DNA of 64,000 nucleotides from Lachnospiraceae bacterium (lineage in GTDB: Bacteria; Bacillota; Clostridia; Lachnospirales; Lachnospiraceae). Shown piece after piece: positions 9,401 to 16,987 of the stretch (within the stretch, counting starts at the first letter, position 1; each line of letters opens with the position of its first letter). The translations under genes and the position numbers were made by a program. The stretch covers positions 1 through 64,000 of the forward strand of contig BLMC01000003.1 of assembly GCA_011959805.1 (NCBI GenBank), read 5' to 3'. The notes under the pieces are model-generated. The model saw only the letters and a list, made by a program, of their open reading frames with translations. It ran no database searches and had not been told where the DNA came from.

Positions 9401-10402
9401 TTAAATTTGCTGATCAATGATAGACACTCCAATTTTTTCAGGCTGAAGAAGGTCATGAATAATTTTTTTGCAATCTTGTGCAGCAGTAGTGCCAAATACT
9501 GCATTTTCGCCAAATAATGTGTTAAAATTGCTAGTAAAATCATTGGTGGTGAGATCAATTGTATCGTCGAAACGCATCTTTTTATTTTCACTGTCAAAAG
9601 TTAGACCAATCTTGGATAGTTCTTCTTTGTGGTCAAGGCACAATTGATTTAATTTGCCGATTGTCTCTACATGGTCAGTATTGTTTGTATTGTAGATAAA
9701 GTCTGCAAAAGAAGTAAGGGACTTTTTAATATCTTCTTGAAAGGTTGGATTGGAAATAACACTGGATTGTACAAGACTATTGTTTTTTTGCAAAGCAGAT
9801 AGGATTGACCCAGCTAATGTTACTTTGGTTGCAAGTAAAACATCGTTTTCTTTGTACTCGGTAGTTTGTGTTATTTTATGTTCGACAATACTGTATTCTG
9901 CATTGTCGGTGGTTTCTTCTAATTTGCGCATGATTTTATCTGCTTTTCCAATAAAGGAATCATGTCCTACAAGCAGTTGATCAATTGATTTGTCTTTAGC
10001 ATTTTTGAAAATCTTATAGTTGAGTGAATATTTCCCTTTTTCTTTTGTGATTCCAACTTTTCTTAGGTCTTTTTCATGTTCCGAAAATAATTTTTTTAAT
10101 TTGGAAACCTGTTTTTTTACATTTGGGTCTGTTATGGATGCAGAGTCTTTTTCTAAATCATTATAAGATTTGATAAAGTCCTCCAATCGTTTTTCAACCA
10201 TGTCTTTTGAAGTTCCACCGGGGGAGTAACTTTTTAACATTTTTAATTTTTTGCGAAAAGAGTCCTCGCTGTCTTGAAGTTTTTGGATATCGGTATCTGT
10301 TTCTGTTATTTTTTTAACATAAGAGCTTGTATAGGAAAAGTCATTATCTCTAATTTTGTTTATAAGGTCGACGGGCGTATATGGTTTTAATTGAATTGCC
10401 AT
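9401..10402 (-). CDS. Unknown protein with two FliD-like repeats
   Basis: 333 residues, mostly Lys/Glu/Asp-rich helices, with no signal peptide. Two segments resemble each other: about 125-190 (FSEHEKDLRKVGITKEKGKY, then IDQLLVG...IMRKLEE) and about 255-325 (CLDHKEELSKIGLTFDSENK, then FNTLFGE...CKKIIHDLL). Both follow the pattern helix - GI/GL - short strand turn - 'LF G' - helix seen near the C-terminus of the flagellar cap protein FliD. No flagellar genes are nearby. The start at 10402 has AAGGAGGAATATTT before the ATG. The family is not recognised and the FliD likeness is inference. Confidence 0.7.
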   Translation of the reverse strand: MAIQLKPYTPVDLINKIRDNDFSYTSSYVKKITETDTDIQKLQDSEDSFRKKLKMLKSYSPGGTSKDMVEKRLEDFIKSYNDLEKDSASITDPNVKKQVSKLKKLFSEHEKDLRKVGITKEKGKYSLNYKIFKNAKDKSIDQLLVGHDSFIGKADKIMRKLEETTDNAEYSIVEHKITQTTEYKENDVLLATKVTLAGSILSALQKNNSLVQSSVISNPTFQEDIKKSLTSFADFIYNTNNTDHVETIGKLNQLCLDHKEELSKIGLTFDSENKKMRFDDTIDLTTNDFTSNFNTLFGENAVFGTTAAQDCKKIIHDLLQPEKIGVSIIDQQI

Positions 10403-10450
10403 AAATATTCCTCCTTGAATTATAATAAAAATCGTTTCTTCAAATTTTCT

Positions 10451-10479
10451 TTGCACTTGTATTGTATAATTTAGTGCAA
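10451..10479. promoter_or_regulatory. Short inverted repeat in divergent promoter region
   Basis: TTGCACT and AGTGCAA arms, 15 bp apart, enclose an AT-rich TATAAT-like core between the divergent FliD-like-repeat gene and the ABC operon. This could be an operator around a -10 box. No good -35 partner was found, so confidence is low. Confidence 0.3.
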
Positions 10480-10656: not shown

Positions 10657-13005
10657 ATGAGAAAAAAGTTGATTGCACTGTTTACAGCGATAGCGGTCAG
10701 TATTACAACTGTTGGATGCGGCACAAAGGAGCAGGTTGTCAGCAATGAGAAAAGTTCCAATACCAATATTTCGACTGAGACAAACATGACAGAAGAGCGT
10801 TCCAACGAATCTAGTCAGAAGAATGAAACAGTCAGTGGAGGAATGGGGCGTTATGTAGAGACAATCGTTTATGAAGAGACGAATTTCTATAATAAGGTAG
10901 AAAAACAGACTTTAAATGATGGTCAGATGGTCTTTCTAAACAGTCTCTCAAACCAGCAAATTGTTTCTAAAGATAATGGTTCTACATGGAGTCCAAAAGC
11001 ACAAGAGGCGTTTTCTAATTTTATTGATGTACATTATCCAGCGGAATCAGCCATTGCAAAAGATGGAACCATTGCCATTATTGGGATGGATAAGATAGCA
11101 GGAACAGAGAGTGATTACGAGTACAATCTTTACATTTACAATACAGATGATACTACAAAGCAGATTTCTGTTCCACTACCAGATACGAATTCCCATCTAA
11201 GTGAATTGGCATTTGATGAGCAGGGAACCTTGTACGTGTTTGCATCAGGGTGCAAAACAATCTATCAGGTGGATATTAGCACAAAAACAGCAGAAAAGCT
11301 TGTGACGCTCGAGGACTCTGTACATTTGCTTGAGTGTAGAGATGGTATTTTGATGTGCTTGACATTTGAGAAGATATTTCTTTATGATTTGGAAAAGAAA
11401 AGTTTTATTGAGGATGAAGTATTAGATAGTTTTGTTGAACAAAATTATGAGGAAATATCATGGACAGGAGGAGGGTACACGGCATATGCTTTTTTGGGGA
11501 CAGACAAAACAATCTATATAGCTGGGGAGAAAGGTTTGCACCGTCATGTTATTGATGGGGGTATTGTGGAACAAGTAATTGATGGAAGTCTTTCCTCGCT
11601 AGGAGATCCTACATATAGTATTTTGGCGATGACAATGAATGACAAGAATGAGTTTTTTGCAGCGTACAATGATGGGAAGATTGTGAAATTCACTTATGAT
11701 GCGACAGTGCCTTCTGTTCCAAGCGATAAAATTACGGTCTATAGTTTGAGTGAAGATGATTTAGTGAAACAGACAATTTCAGCTTACCAGGCACAGAACC
11801 CAGATATGTTTGTAGAGTATCAAATAGGAATAGATGAGGGCGGCGTTACACGAGAAGATGCACTTAAAAAATTAAATACACAATTGCTTAGTGGCAATGG
11901 TCCTGATGTGATTATGCTGGATGGGATGAATATTGACACTTATGCAGAAAAAGGTGTGTTGATGGATTTGTCTGATATAGTCAATGATGTTAACCAGAGC
12001 GATGGGCTTTATATGAATCTGATGGAACAGTTTCAGACAAATGCCAACCTGTACGCTGTTCCAGCAAAGTTTTATATTCCAGTTATTTTGGGTGATTCGG
12101 ATTATGTGGATCATGTAGAGGACTATCAATCAATTGCGGATATGGCAGAAAAAGCTCGAGATGCATATCCTGATACAAGCATATTGAGTGTGTGTTCGGC
12201 AACTGGTATTATGAGAAGATTTATGCCAGTGTGTGCGCCGACATGGAAAGATGAGAATGGGCAGTTAAATCAGAGTAAAATACGAGAGTTTTTGGAGCAG
12301 TCAAAGAGACTTTATGATGTGGAGATGAACGGTACACCAGAGGAGTATATTGAGCAGTATAAACAAAAATTAATTGACGCAGATGGAAGAAACTTTGAGG
12401 AAGAAAAATATTTTATGATGTTGCTAGACACTTCTTATTTGATGCAACAGTCACCGTTTGCGTATGGAGAAATAATCGATGCAGGTACTTATAGAACGAT
12501 GCTGTCCGTACCAAGAATTAGTGGTTTGGAGAATACATTGATAAAGCTAATGAGTGGACAGTGCAACAATGTTTATCACCCTGAATCAATTGTCGGGATT
12601 AATGCAGCGACCAAAAATGTGGATGCAGCCGGACAGTTTGTGCGTATGATGCTTGGCACGACTGTTCAAGAGACATTGCAATTTGGAATTCCTGTAAACA
12701 AGAAGGCACTGCCAAAGCAGTTTGCCTATGATGAGAGTGAGCTTGGAGAGGACGGTGGGCAATATTATATGAGTTTTTCAATGAAGGATGGAATAAGATT
12801 TTCCTATACCATTTATCCAGTAGATCAGGAAGGAATCAATAAGCTCGAATCTTGGATTGCACAGTTTGACACACCTTATTTAAGAGATATTGTACTAGAA
12901 ACTGCAGTTTATACGGAGGGTGCAAAGTACATTGAAGGGATACAAGATATTGACTCAGCAGTGAAGGCAATTGCGGATAGTGTCGAGATTTATCTTTCTG
13001 AATAG
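10657..13005 (+). CDS. Lipoprotein: beta-propeller-like domain fused to ABC solute-binding domain
   Basis: 782 residues. A lipoprotein signal ends in TTVGCG, so Cys 21 or so is probably lipidated and the protein is anchored outside the membrane. Residues about 60-365 contain repeated strand-rich units of the kind 'FDEQGTLYVFASG' and 'MNDKNEFFAAYNDGKIVKF', typical of a beta-propeller. Residues about 370-780 are a family 1 extracellular solute-binding domain (LSGNGPDVIMLDGMNIDTYA, EKGVLMDLSDIV). Two sugar-type permeases follow directly. The fusion is much longer than the usual 400-450 residues for such binding proteins. The internal ATG was chosen because GGAGGG lies before it. The ligand is unknown. 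Confidence 0.85.
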   Translation: MRKKLIALFTAIAVSITTVGCGTKEQVVSNEKSSNTNISTETNMTEERSNESSQKNETVSGGMGRYVETIVYEETNFYNKVEKQTLNDGQMVFLNSLSNQQIVSKDNGSTWSPKAQEAFSNFIDVHYPAESAIAKDGTIAIIGMDKIAGTESDYEYNLYIYNTDDTTKQISVPLPDTNSHLSELAFDEQGTLYVFASGCKTIYQVDISTKTAEKLVTLEDSVHLLECRDGILMCLTFEKIFLYDLEKKSFIEDEVLDSFVEQNYEEISWTGGGYTAYAFLGTDKTIYIAGEKGLHRHVIDGGIVEQVIDGSLSSLGDPTYSILAMTMNDKNEFFAAYNDGKIVKFTYDATVPSVPSDKITVYSLSEDDLVKQTISAYQAQNPDMFVEYQIGIDEGGVTREDALKKLNTQLLSGNGPDVIMLDGMNIDTYAEKGVLMDLSDIVNDVNQSDGLYMNLMEQFQTNANLYAVPAKFYIPVILGDSDYVDHVEDYQSIADMAEKARDAYPDTSILSVCSATGIMRRFMPVCAPTWKDENGQLNQSKIREFLEQSKRLYDVEMNGTPEEYIEQYKQKLIDADGRNFEEEKYFMMLLDTSYLMQQSPFAYGEIIDAGTYRTMLSVPRISGLENTLIKLMSGQCNNVYHPESIVGINAATKNVDAAGQFVRMMLGTTVQETLQFGIPVNKKALPKQFAYDESELGEDGGQYYMSFSMKDGIRFSYTIYPVDQEGINKLESWIAQFDTPYLRDIVLETAVYTEGAKYIEGIQDIDSAVKAIADSVEIYLSE

Positions 13006-13018
13006 CAAGGGTAAAAAG

Positions 13019-13789
13019 ATGAAACGATTTAAAGAAGTTGCCTATTTTATAGGGTTTATTGGAATAAGTCTTGCTGGGGTGTTGATTTTTGTATTAATTC
13101 CATTTGCAGATGTGATAAGACGTTCTTTTATGACTGTTATGTCAGGGGAGTTTGCAAGATTTAATAACTATCAAATCGTAATCAATAATCAGGCATTTCG
13201 TCTCGCGGTAAAAAACACGCTCCATTTTGTGAGCGTGGCAATACCGCTGGTAGCTGTAATTGGTTTGACAGCGGCATTAGTGCTTAACAAGATACAAGAA
13301 ATTCGTATCATAAAAAGTTTGTATTTGTTTCCAATGGCAATGCCAACAGCAACGGTGGTTATAGTTTGGAGAATGTTTTTCTATCAGCAGAATTTTGACA
13401 GTTTGGTCATCAGTTATCTGTGGAAAAATACAGGTTATACCATTGTGCTGTGGCTTGCGGGGATTGCAGGAATCCCGAATGAACTGATTGAAGCATCAAA
13501 AGTGGATGGCGCAAACAGATTGCAATGTTTAATCTTTGTAAAACTGCCATGTCTAAAAGGGAGTATTTACACAATTGTGATTTTATCTTTTTTAAATTCT
13601 ATGAAAATCTATAGGGAAGCGTACCTTGTCGGAGGCTCTTATCCTAAAAAGGATATTTATCTTTTGCAACATACATTTAATAATTGGTATGTGAATCTTG
13701 AGTTTGACAAGATGGCGGCGGCAAGTGTTTTGGTGGCGATTGTGCTGTTTGCGTTTATTTTAATGTTTCAGTATTATAGTCAGAAATAA
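13019..13789 (+). CDS. Sugar-type ABC transporter permease (MalF-like)
   Basis: 256-residue inner-membrane permease with about six hydrophobic segments. The cytoplasmic EAA loop that contacts the ATPase is visible as EASKVDGANRLQCLIFVKLP near residue 160. Belongs to the CUT1 carbohydrate permease type. AAGGG precedes the ATG, 13 bp after the binding-protein gene; it is therefore co-transcribed. The protein is shorter than E. coli MalF because it lacks the large periplasmic loop, which is normal in Firmicutes. Confidence 0.9.
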   Translation: MKRFKEVAYFIGFIGISLAGVLIFVLIPFADVIRRSFMTVMSGEFARFNNYQIVINNQAFRLAVKNTLHFVSVAIPLVAVIGLTAALVLNKIQEIRIIKSLYLFPMAMPTATVVIVWRMFFYQQNFDSLVISYLWKNTGYTIVLWLAGIAGIPNELIEASKVDGANRLQCLIFVKLPCLKGSIYTIVILSFLNSMKIYREAYLVGGSYPKKDIYLLQHTFNNWYVNLEFDKMAAASVLVAIVLFAFILMFQYYSQK

Positions 13790-13823
13790 TCAAAGAATTT
13801 CTGCGTAAAGTGGGAGACTAGAA

Positions 13824-14690
13824 GTGAAGAGAAAGAAATTTTTTCGGATGATATTAGAGGCAGTGACAAAATTGATTTTTATAGTAGTAGGGATTGTAAT
13901 CTGTGCGCCAGTATTTCTTGTTGTAACAGGTTCTGTTATGGGAAAAGAGGATTTGTATGCGTGTTTAGCGCCCGTGTTTGAACATGGAACGGGATTTGTA
14001 TCATGGAAACTTATTCCACAATATCCTACGATAGAAAATTATATCCGGTTGCTTTTTTATTCGCCGGAATTTTTTGTATTGTTTTGGAATTCAATGAAGA
14101 TGGTTATCTTGATTTTGCTGGGGCAAATGGTGGTGGGAGTACCTGCGGCATGGGCGTTTGCAACGTATGTAGTAAAAGGAAAAAATGTGCTTTTTACCAT
14201 CTATGTTGTATTAATGTTGTTGCCTTTTCAGGTGACAATGCTCTCAAGTTATCTAACACTTGACAGGTTGTCTTTGCTAAATACACATTGGGCGGTTATC
14301 CTTCCAGCAGTGTTTAATACGTTTCCAATTTTTATAATTTATGGTGGATTTCGCACCATACCAAAATCGTTAATTGAGGCAACCAGAATCGACGGTGCAG
14401 GGGAGATTTATATTTTTTTTATGGTGGGAATAGGGCTTGGAAAAGGTGGGATTTTCTCTGCGCTAGTGCTTGGATTTTTGGAATATTGGAATATGATTGA
14501 GCAACCGTTTGCATTTTTGGAGGACAAGACGTTATGGCCGTTGTCATTATATTTGCCTGAAATTAGCTGGACACAGGCGGGATTTGCATTCGCTGCGTCG
14601 GTGGTTATGCTAATTCCGGCAATTTTTGTATTTATGATGGGGCAAGATTATTTGGAACAAGGAATTATTTATTCTGGACTAAAGGGTTAG
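13824..14690 (+). CDS. Sugar-type ABC transporter permease (MalG-like)
   Basis: 288 residues with six hydrophobic segments and the EAA loop EATRIDGAGEIYIFFMVGIG near residue 190. The second half of the heterodimeric CUT1 permease. Translation appears to start at GTG, preceded by GGGAG. No ATP-binding subunit is encoded in this operon. CUT1 systems often borrow a shared MsmX-type ATPase from elsewhere in the genome, so this alone is not evidence of a defect. Confidence 0.9.
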   Translation: MKRKKFFRMILEAVTKLIFIVVGIVICAPVFLVVTGSVMGKEDLYACLAPVFEHGTGFVSWKLIPQYPTIENYIRLLFYSPEFFVLFWNSMKMVILILLGQMVVGVPAAWAFATYVVKGKNVLFTIYVVLMLLPFQVTMLSSYLTLDRLSLLNTHWAVILPAVFNTFPIFIIYGGFRTIPKSLIEATRIDGAGEIYIFFMVGIGLGKGGIFSALVLGFLEYWNMIEQPFAFLEDKTLWPLSLYLPEISWTQAGFAFAASVVMLIPAIFVFMMGQDYLEQGIIYSGLKG

Positions 14691-14736
14691 GAATTGTTTT
14701 AAAATTAATCACAAGGCTATTGTGTGGAGGAGTTGT

Positions 14737-16839
14737 ATGTTAGAGAAAGATGAGGAGAAGTTGTTAATCCGCAGACGAATAGAAAAATCGATGAAGATAT
14801 TTTTAATATTTTTGGCGTTTGTGTGGCTGTGCACAATTATTTCAAAAAGTATTTATGTGTCAGGCCTGCCGATTGTCAATACAGATACAGCCTCTAAAAA
14901 GTATGTGGAACATATTGTGGAGACAGATGGAATTGTGATAGCAGGTGGTGAAATTGCTGTGAATACGCAAGCCGGATTGCGTGTGGATAAAGTATTTGTC
15001 CATCAGGGGGATGCAGTCAAAGCTGGAGATGTTCTTTTTACAATCGATTTGGCAGACGTTGTGGAGCTTATCGATGCAAAAGAGATGGAGCTTTCTAAAC
15101 TTCAGTGTAATCTTTCGGATTTCCAGATAAATTCATTGATTGATGCACAGAAGAAGGAAGTGGCAATTCTCTGGGCAAAAGAAGACTATGAGACCGCGGA
15201 TAAGGAGACAGCACTGGCGAAGGAGCGCGCAAAAATAACCTTGGAAAAGGCGGAGGAAGCACTACAAAAGCATCTAGCAAACACAGTGCCATACACGGCA
15301 GACAATGCGCGGCGTGATGCGTGGGAGGCGTACCATGACTGGGTAAGCAAAGGATATAGTATCACAGATAAGATTACAGCACAGGAACGTGAAATTCAAA
15401 GATTGGAGGAACAACTTGCTGCGCTAGAGAATCTTGCTGGAAAAGAGGGCAATATAGAAAATGATGAACAAGGAAAAGTGTTGTCAGGGGCAGCAGGAAA
15501 CTTAGTACATAATAATACAGAGAAAGTAGATATAAACGATAATTCTAAAGTGGAAAACAATACAGATAAGACAACTAACATAGGAATTGAATTTGAAGAT
15601 GCAGAAGTGGAAAATAGCACAGATACCAATACGATAGAGACAGACAATGAAGATACGATTGTAGACAATAGGGAAGAAAATACTGCCGATACAGATATGG
15701 GCGACAAAGATATAGATACAGAAAATAACACAGACAACACAGATACAAAGAATACAGAGATAGACGACGAAAATACAGATGCAAAGACAGATATTGACAA
15801 AACAAATAATACAGACTTTGAAAATCAAGAGATGGATAGTAATAATACAGAAAACAACACTTCTACACAAAAACCAAAAGAAAATCAAGAATTTGTGGAT
15901 GAGGAAAAACGAACAGAACTGCTAAACAAAATTAAAAAAGCAAATAAACAGTTGGTTGCGTTGCGCGATCAGTTGACAAAACATGACAGAGATGTAGTTA
16001 CACAGCCAGATTATTCTGCGGAAGAAGCTGAGTATGATGCATGGCAGAACACAAAGCTTACGCTGGAAGAAAATGTGCAACATGCAAAAGAATCTTATTA
16101 TGATACAAGCTATGCACGCGAAGTTACACTGCGGCAAAAAATGCGAGAGATTGCCGCTGCGGAAGTTCCATCAAGGGTAGATTCTACGGCTGAAGTTTAT
16201 CAACTTGAAATTAAACAGACACAAAAGCAGATTGAAAGACTAAATATGATCAAAAAACAAAAAGGAGAAATTAAGGCGGAAAAAGATGGTATTATTTCTA
16301 AGATTCAAATAGAAGTTGGGAGCAGAACATCAGATGTGGCTGCGCTATTAGTGACAGATACACAAAGACCTTGTCAGTTTAAATTCAGCATTACAAAAGA
16401 AGATAGCAAATATGTTCATTTAAAAGACATGATTGCGGTCAAACTCAATGGACAGTCCTCCGCAATAGAAGTTACAGTGGATTATTTTACAGAAAATACA
16501 CAGGGGGGTTATGATATTGCATGCCAACTCCCTGAAAATGTGGGACAGCCTGGTTGGAGCGGAAAAGCCCAGAAAACAGTGCAAGGAGAATATCATGAAT
16601 TGACTTTTCCAGTGGAGGCTGTCTTTGAGGAAAATAATGCTTATTATATTTATACATTGAATGAAAAAGAAGGAATTCTTGGAAGTGAATATTATGTCGA
16701 GAAAATTAAGGTACAAATGAAAGACCAAAATGATCGTTATATTGCAGTTGAACCTGGAACAATCAGTGCGGACACGAAAGTGGTTATCTACTCTACGAAA
16801 GAATTAAAACAAGGACAAAGCGTGCGTCCACGGGAATAA
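14737..16839 (+). CDS. HlyD-like membrane-fusion/adaptor protein with acidic low-complexity insert
   Basis: 700 residues. A single N-terminal membrane segment (about 19-38) is followed by a biotinyl-lipoyl-like half (AGLRVDKVFVHQGDAVKAGDVLFTIDLADV), a coiled coil, a roughly 120-residue Asp/Asn/Thr/Glu-rich insert (about 260-380), a second coiled coil (EIKQTQKQIERLNMIKKQKG), and the second lipoyl half with beta-barrel (GEIKAEKDGIISKIQIEVGS). This is the layout of HlyD/MacA-type adaptors. It follows the ABC permeases by 46 bp with GGAGG before the ATG, so it is the fourth gene of that operon. An export adaptor next to an import-type permease pair is unusual. Confidence 0.8.
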   Translation: MLEKDEEKLLIRRRIEKSMKIFLIFLAFVWLCTIISKSIYVSGLPIVNTDTASKKYVEHIVETDGIVIAGGEIAVNTQAGLRVDKVFVHQGDAVKAGDVLFTIDLADVVELIDAKEMELSKLQCNLSDFQINSLIDAQKKEVAILWAKEDYETADKETALAKERAKITLEKAEEALQKHLANTVPYTADNARRDAWEAYHDWVSKGYSITDKITAQEREIQRLEEQLAALENLAGKEGNIENDEQGKVLSGAAGNLVHNNTEKVDINDNSKVENNTDKTTNIGIEFEDAEVENSTDTNTIETDNEDTIVDNREENTADTDMGDKDIDTENNTDNTDTKNTEIDDENTDAKTDIDKTNNTDFENQEMDSNNTENNTSTQKPKENQEFVDEEKRTELLNKIKKANKQLVALRDQLTKHDRDVVTQPDYSAEEAEYDAWQNTKLTLEENVQHAKESYYDTSYAREVTLRQKMREIAAAEVPSRVDSTAEVYQLEIKQTQKQIERLNMIKKQKGEIKAEKDGIISKIQIEVGSRTSDVAALLVTDTQRPCQFKFSITKEDSKYVHLKDMIAVKLNGQSSAIEVTVDYFTENTQGGYDIACQLPENVGQPGWSGKAQKTVQGEYHELTFPVEAVFEENNAYYIYTLNEKEGILGSEYYVEKIKVQMKDQNDRYIAVEPGTISADTKVVIYSTKELKQGQSVRPRE
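15520..15870 (+). repeat. Low-complexity Asn/Asp/Thr-coding repeat inside adaptor gene
   Basis: Degenerate short repeats built on AATACAGAT/AACACAGACAAC encode runs such as NTDNTDTK and NNTENNTS between the two coiled-coil arms of the adaptor. Long apparent open frames on the opposite strand here are composition artefacts. The tract could vary in length by slippage. Confidence 0.7.
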
Positions 16840-16850
16840 TAGGCGGAAAC

Positions 16851-16987
16851 GTAACAGTTCAGTCTTCGGCTTCCTGTTACAAGCATCAAACCATGCAAAA
16901 CCACTTCGTGGTAGCTTGATGCATCTTTTCCACTACGCTGTTTCACGGACTTTGCAGCAAGTGCAAAGTCCTAGGCTGAACTGTTAC
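16851..16987. mobile_element. MITE-like palindromic element, copy A
   Basis: Terminal inverted repeats GTAACAGTTCAG and CTGAACTGTTAC bound 137 bp that fold into several hairpins. The direct repeat GGAAAC sits immediately left (16845-16850) and 2 bp beyond the right end (16990-16995), suggesting a target-site duplication. Compared with copy B at 30.2 kb (opposite orientation), the first 30 bases are identical, and copy A carries about 34 extra bases containing the hairpin GGACTTTGCA/TGCAAAGTCC (16947-16971). It encodes no protein and may also terminate the ABC operon. Confidence 0.7.

Follow-up and report, generated by a model that had tools for sequence, protein, structure and literature searches.

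An HlyD/MacA-Type Adaptor Associated with the Permeases of a Putative CUT1-Type Importer in Lachnospiraceae and Other Clostridia

Gene Organization of the Locus

The window analyzed here comprises the first 64,000 nucleotides of contig BLMC01000003.1 from a Lachnospiraceae bacterium (assembly GCA_011959805.1). It contains four open genes on the + strand in the order lipoprotein, permease 1, permease 2 and adaptor, separated by intergenic gaps of 13, 34 and 46 nt, respectively; the start codon of permease 2 is GTG. The genes and their relevant parts are given below.

10657..13005, + strand: lipoprotein with signal/lipobox (Cys21), disordered linker, beta-propeller and CUT1-type solute-binding domain (Pfam SBP_bac_8, profile matches, AlphaFold2, Foldseek)
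10843..11712, + strand: beta-propeller domain (strand pattern of the model; WD40 profile matches)
13019..13789, + strand: permease 1, MalF/UgpA-like, short form, EAA loop IEASKVDGA (PF00528, 7.4e-13; alignment)
13824..14690, + strand: permease 2, MalG/UgpE-like, EAA loop IEATRIDGA (PF00528, 1.7e-10; UgpE/MalG models, 1.8e-15; alignment)
13908..14090, + strand: extracellular TM1-TM2 loop of permease 2 (P29-N89), candidate adaptor docking site (loop lengths)
14737..16839, + strand: HlyD/MacA-type adaptor, 700 aa (RND_mfp, 4.7e-18; profile against solved adaptors; AlphaFold2; Foldseek)
14749..14862, + strand: N-terminal transmembrane (TM) anchor of the adaptor (helix 5-42 in the AlphaFold2 model)
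15436..15900, + strand: acidic disordered insert of 155 residues at the hairpin tip of the adaptor (pLDDT under 50 at 234-388; composition)
16534..16836, + strand: C-terminal membrane-proximal domain of the adaptor, the part retained by mini-adaptors (mini-adaptor comparison)

An earlier note, made from the sequence alone, had described this set as a propeller/solute-binding lipoprotein, two CUT1 permeases and an HlyD-like adaptor, and the open reading frames, protein families and structure models bore this out. A consensus scan of the gap between permease 2 and the adaptor gene revealed neither a promoter-like site nor a terminator-like site on the + strand, and no RNA families were found in the window. 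An ORF of up to 351 aa on the - strand (9401-10456), divergent from the operon, matched no Pfam family above the cut-off. Downstream of the adaptor gene, before the gene for anaerobic ribonucleotide reductase, lies a palindromic repeat of about 137 bp (16851-16987), a REP/MITE-like element with 31 full or partial copies in the genome.

Binding Protein, Permeases and ATPase

The lipoprotein carries the lipobox ..TTVGC21, and its C-terminal half matched SBP_bac_8 (2.9e-11) and SBP_bac_1. In the AlphaFold2 model (mean pLDDT 83, pTM 0.84), about 25 consecutive strands at residues 63-352 are followed by a solute-binding protein (SBP) fold (about 357-781). The profile of 31 relatives matched both CUT1 binding proteins (CbpC/YesO) and WD40 propellers, and Foldseek returned CbpC, YesO and Lmo0181. 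Thus, Pfam, AlphaFold2 and Foldseek agree on a sugar-type solute-binding lipoprotein as in CUT1 importers, and the additional propeller proposed earlier was recovered by the WD40 profile matches and the model. Relatives from other families (L234, L236, L238 and L240) have a plain SBP and still possess the adaptor. The propeller was therefore rejected as a defining trait; among the sequences compared, its fusion is a feature of part of the family. In some modules, as the related operons are called here, one permease pair is accompanied by up to three or four SBP genes (L086, L103, L104, L105 and L238), which suggests exchangeable ligand receptors.

BPD_transp_1 matched both permeases, and both contain EAA loops, as expected for a CUT1 importer. 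In the alignments of their relatives, the E/D/G/A columns of these loops are nearly invariant for both permeases. Permease 1, with 256 aa, lacks about 30 residues found in most relatives. Since the closest relatives L071, L073 and L075 share the short form, it is a clade-wide character, and damage was rejected as its cause.

No ATPase gene is present in the operon. The earlier note had pointed this out correctly, but it is no anomaly: the ordinary CUT1 pairs fetched from the same genome have no ATPase gene beside them either, and an unlinked UgpC/MalK-type ATPase of 392 aa is encoded at G000:C22:1299-2474. In the relatives L054, L055, L225, L230 and L231, MalK is encoded within the operon. In Firmicutes, type I sugar importers are known to share ATPases (PMC7658222). 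From the unlinked MalK, the operon-encoded MalK of some relatives, this precedent and the retained EAA loops, we infer that an ATPase shared from elsewhere in the genome would serve these permeases. The arrangement resembles that of MsmX/MsmK systems, i.e., importers without their own ATPase gene and one unlinked UgpC/MalK-type ATPase, and differs from it in that some module relatives have the ATPase in the operon.

Architecture and Origin of the Adaptor

HlyD/MacA-type adaptors are known as parts of exporters. In its AlphaFold2 model, the adaptor of the window has the full architecture of this (MFP) type, with one TM helix, a membrane-proximal domain, a beta-barrel, two lipoyl halves and a long hairpin with arms at residues 105-234 and 389-507. 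Its profile matched solved adaptors down to 1.5e-28, and Foldseek returned AcrA, MacA and EmrA. Thus, the lipoyl halves, long hairpin and acidic insert described earlier were all recovered, while the insert was found to comprise 155 residues instead of 120. This insert at the hairpin tip (residues 234-388) is disordered, with about 29% D+E. Since its length varies strongly among close relatives, as does its sequence, it looks like a flexible spacer.

The module adaptors were compared with five adaptors that genomes of the window's family encode in MacAB-type operons (ATPase, adaptor, MacB-like permease). In a quick tree with long branches, the two groups fell on two sides of one branch (SH-aLRT 81). 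Together with the shared architecture, this tree suggests a single recruitment of the adaptor from a MacAB-type exporter.

Conservation of the Adaptor beside the Permeases

The same four-gene order was sought in other genomes. Adaptor homologues in 150 genomes of the window's family yielded 40 loci, most of which have the order SBP, permease 1, permease 2 and adaptor. When genome contigs were scanned with an alignment of permease 2, 80 named loci emerged, almost all of them from Lachnospiraceae, with Neglectibacter timonensis in addition. The hosts of the module include Kineothrix alysoides, Eisenbergiella tayi, Parablautia muri, Diplocloster agilis and Coprococcus catus. Over both locus sets, the adaptor gene lies directly downstream in 111 of 114 strong permease 2 loci (median gap 17 nt), which were picked by similarity and hence are not independent samples. 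As to the three exceptions, the adaptor gene lies upstream within the operon in two, and L124 has a long overlapping adaptor frame. Permease 2 was detected at E <= 1e-70 in 54 of 200 family genomes and at E <= 1e-75 in 36 of 341 genomes of the class, with more than ten other families represented. At 19 of 20 fetched distant loci the adaptor is part of the operon; the remaining locus stops at the contig edge. The remaining CUT1 pairs fetched from the window's genome served as a control; they are without a full-length adaptor, and one (L178) has a mini-adaptor. A split of the adaptor from the permeases in relatives, or a promoter and terminator between them, named in the earlier note as counter-evidence, was looked for and did not appear. 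Judged by this distribution, the adaptor-permease association is ancient and conserved across Clostridia.

Over 94 complete modules, the evolutionary distances between adaptors parallel those between their partner proteins, with correlations of 0.91 for permease 1, 0.89 for permease 2 and 0.89 for the SBP; this is as strong as the correlation between SBP and permeases (0.87-0.88). Paralogous module copies within one genome stay coherent. The distance correlation fits co-inheritance of the module as a unit and is confounded with common descent.

Mini-Adaptors and the Permease 2 Loop

Via weaker permease 2 relatives, mini-adaptors were found at L225, L242, L245, L246, L247, L249, L256 and L257. 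These proteins of 122-253 aa (122 aa at L225) consist of a TM helix and the membrane-proximal domain, without the lipoyl or hairpin part. Weaker cases are L178 from the window's own genome, with a profile E of 0.001 that is poorer than for L225 or L256, and the second module of L240, where the halves lie in separate frames. L178 is a second adaptor-bearing CUT1 system of this genome, in which a plain SBP and two permeases are accompanied by a 147-aa protein with a TM helix and a membrane-proximal-like part (L178:6271-6714, about G000:C58:9270-9713). An earlier tree had put L178 within the module clade (AU p of 0.094 for modules alone). This position is explained by its mini-adaptor, and L178 was thus rejected as an adaptor-free exception inside the clade. 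At L250, a 370-aa ORF after permease 2 may unite a mini-adaptor and the C-terminal, TM-containing portion of the MacB-like fifth protein described below; the scores are weak, and such a fusion is only suggestive.

In the permease 2 tree, obtained by a quick method without bootstrap, 43 adaptor-bearing rows lie on one side of a branch (SH-aLRT 97) and 11 ordinary CUT1 permeases on the other. On this tree, full and mini-adaptors are separated by six changes, at least four of which are forced by well-supported branches. Because exporter adaptors have the full architecture, the mini-adaptors were read as losses. Within the sample, the hairpin appears to have been lost at least four times and the membrane-proximal part never. 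The constant part of the accessory subunit is thus the TM anchor plus the membrane-proximal domain. Therefore, the adaptor probably docks on the permease, and wall-spanning would be optional. The earlier idea that the adaptor links the permease to the cell wall holds in that the adaptor appears to belong to the permease, but the repeated loss of the hairpin weakens a wall link as its core role.

A possible counterpart on the permease is the TM1-TM2 loop of permease 2. Its median length is 61 residues beside full adaptors, 60 beside mini-adaptors and 47 where an adaptor is missing; hence it is about 14 residues longer than in ordinary CUT1 permeases. The medians of the other landmark spacings are equal to within three residues across these classes. 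The longer loop is absent in L178, L249 and L250. It is considered a candidate docking site only, as common descent could give the same pattern.

Taken together, conservation, congruence and the mini-adaptors led us to reject the adaptor as a bystander. The view that it belongs to the permease is supported by these comparisons, and its role as an obligate permease subunit is well supported by them.

Fifth Gene and Gene Neighborhood

In most clades, the adaptor gene is followed by a fifth gene encoding a protein of 200-480 aa with a MacB-type extracellular domain. Its profile matched PDB entries for YknZ and MacB in their extracellular domains (2e-8 to 8e-6), and Pfam MacB_PCD lies just above the cut-off in some members. 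A simple hydropathy count predicted one to six TM helices, often one or two; an ATPase domain was not found. Annotation of the module genes is apparently unspecific: Pfam and NCBIfam gave only generic matches, and NCBIfam none at all for the fifth gene. The fifth gene is absent from the window's clade, which has probably lost it, and the only matches in this genome sit in MacAB-type operons. Thus, the statement that no exporter permease is present applies to the window's clade, but not to most other modules, in which a gene for a MacB-type extracellular domain stands beside the adaptor gene. A MacB-type ATPase was found neither in the window's operon nor beside the tabulated module loci.

Genes for a response regulator and a histidine kinase of the OmpR/HisKA type, usually divergent, were found near 48 of 114 modules, and none is linked to the system of the window. 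Related unlinked pairs occur in this genome at G000:C33 (L169:5095-7211) and G000:C234 (L171); the C33 kinase is 50% identical to the module-linked kinase of the relative L080. Around 40 modules, 126 flanking proteins were tallied; response regulators and histidine kinases occur 24 times each, and a glycoside hydrolase once among the listed families. In comparison, 58 proteins flanking 16 ordinary CUT1 loci of this genome included nine AraC regulators and many glycoside hydrolases; the comparison sets the ordinary loci of one genome against modules of many genomes, and the Pfam tally covers the 25 commonest families. The contrast between these neighborhoods speaks against a part in sugar catabolism and in favor of one in the envelope or in signalling.

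Proposed Function and Alternatives

With moderate confidence, we favor a CUT1-type ABC importer in which an accessory subunit, derived from the adaptor of a MacA/YknX-type exporter, belongs to the permease pair. The propeller lipoprotein would hand over the ligand, and import would be powered by a MalK-type ATPase from elsewhere in the genome that engages the conserved EAA loops. The membrane-proximal domain would bind the permease from outside, probably close to the longer TM1-TM2 loop of permease 2, and the hairpin, with its disordered tip, may reach into the cell wall as an optional extension. The ligand would derive from the cell envelope or act on it, and would not be a dietary sugar. Against this explanation, a closed hexameric adaptor ring might clash with docking of the binding protein, a few members do not have the longer loop, and the window has no linked two-component genes.

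The module may further represent a new class, an import permease permanently built with an export-type adaptor and, in most clades, an ATPase-less MacB-type domain. The membrane-proximal domain would serve gating or docking, the rest would be optional and wall-spanning, and an envelope-related ligand would be moved under two-component control. We put this broader proposal forward tentatively, at somewhat less than an even chance.

An unlikely alternative is an efflux or protection machine directed at a toxic, envelope-active compound. The adaptor, together with any MacB-type protein, would move this compound or shield the cell from it, the SBP and permeases would capture or sense it and the two-component system would act as a switch. 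The resemblance of the fifth protein to MacB/YknZ extracellular domains and the OmpR/HisKA genes as main neighbors speak for it, and Gram-positive pumps of this kind are known in YknWXYZ and Spr0693-0695 (PMC4887032, PMC5768738). However, the module has no LolD/MacB-type ATPase, and its MacB-type protein often has just one or two predicted TM helices left, is absent from the window's clade and occurs elsewhere in this genome only in ordinary MacAB-like operons. Moreover, every characterized system that pairs an SBP with CUT1 permeases of conserved EAA loops is, to our knowledge, an importer.

It is also rather improbable that SBP-propeller, permease and adaptor form a receptor complex that mainly senses the ligand and signals to the divergently encoded kinase. 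The kinase genes near the 48 modules, the related though unlinked kinases of this genome and the SBP paralogues sharing one permease pair would suit such a complex, but the majority of loci show no linked kinase in the stretch fetched, the conserved EAA loops point to ATP-driven transport and MalK lies in the operon in some families. An ordinary nutritional oligosaccharide importer with the adaptor as a co-transcribed passenger seems quite improbable: the SBP domain resembles oligosaccharide-binding proteins and the shared ATPase recalls MsmX/MsmK systems, but the adaptor is co-inherited across many families, has repeatedly been trimmed to the membrane-proximal part while staying beside the permease, and glycoside hydrolases are lacking around the modules.

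Relation to Known Systems and Significance

The favored importer shares with the CUT1 importers MalFGK2, YesOPQ and UgpAEC the SBP lipoprotein, two EAA-loop permeases and probably a MalK-type ATPase, often encoded elsewhere. It differs from them by the full or mini-adaptor, the SBP propeller, the longer TM1-TM2 loop of permease 2 and the few sugar-catabolic neighbors. With MacAB, YknWXYZ and Spr0693-0695 it shares the adaptor with TM, membrane-proximal, barrel, lipoyl and hairpin parts and, in relatives, the MacB-type extracellular domain. Unlike these exporters, it has no LolD/MacB-type ATPase, and its core is a CUT1 permease pair with an SBP. Its MacB-like membrane protein is optional (absent from the window's clade, present without ATPase in most others) and variable in TM count, and its adaptor can shrink to the membrane-proximal part.

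A published description of such a module was not found in the literature searched, which covered few subscription journals. As far as this literature goes, the module is apparently an undescribed, widely conserved importer family of gut bacteria. Throughout a large clade of gut Clostridia, an HlyD/MacA-type adaptor appears tied to a type I importer, and the natural deletion series of full, hairpin-less and absent adaptors suggests that the working contact is made by the membrane-proximal domain. This raises the question of whether an adaptor subunit can regulate or extend an ABC importer in the Gram-positive envelope.
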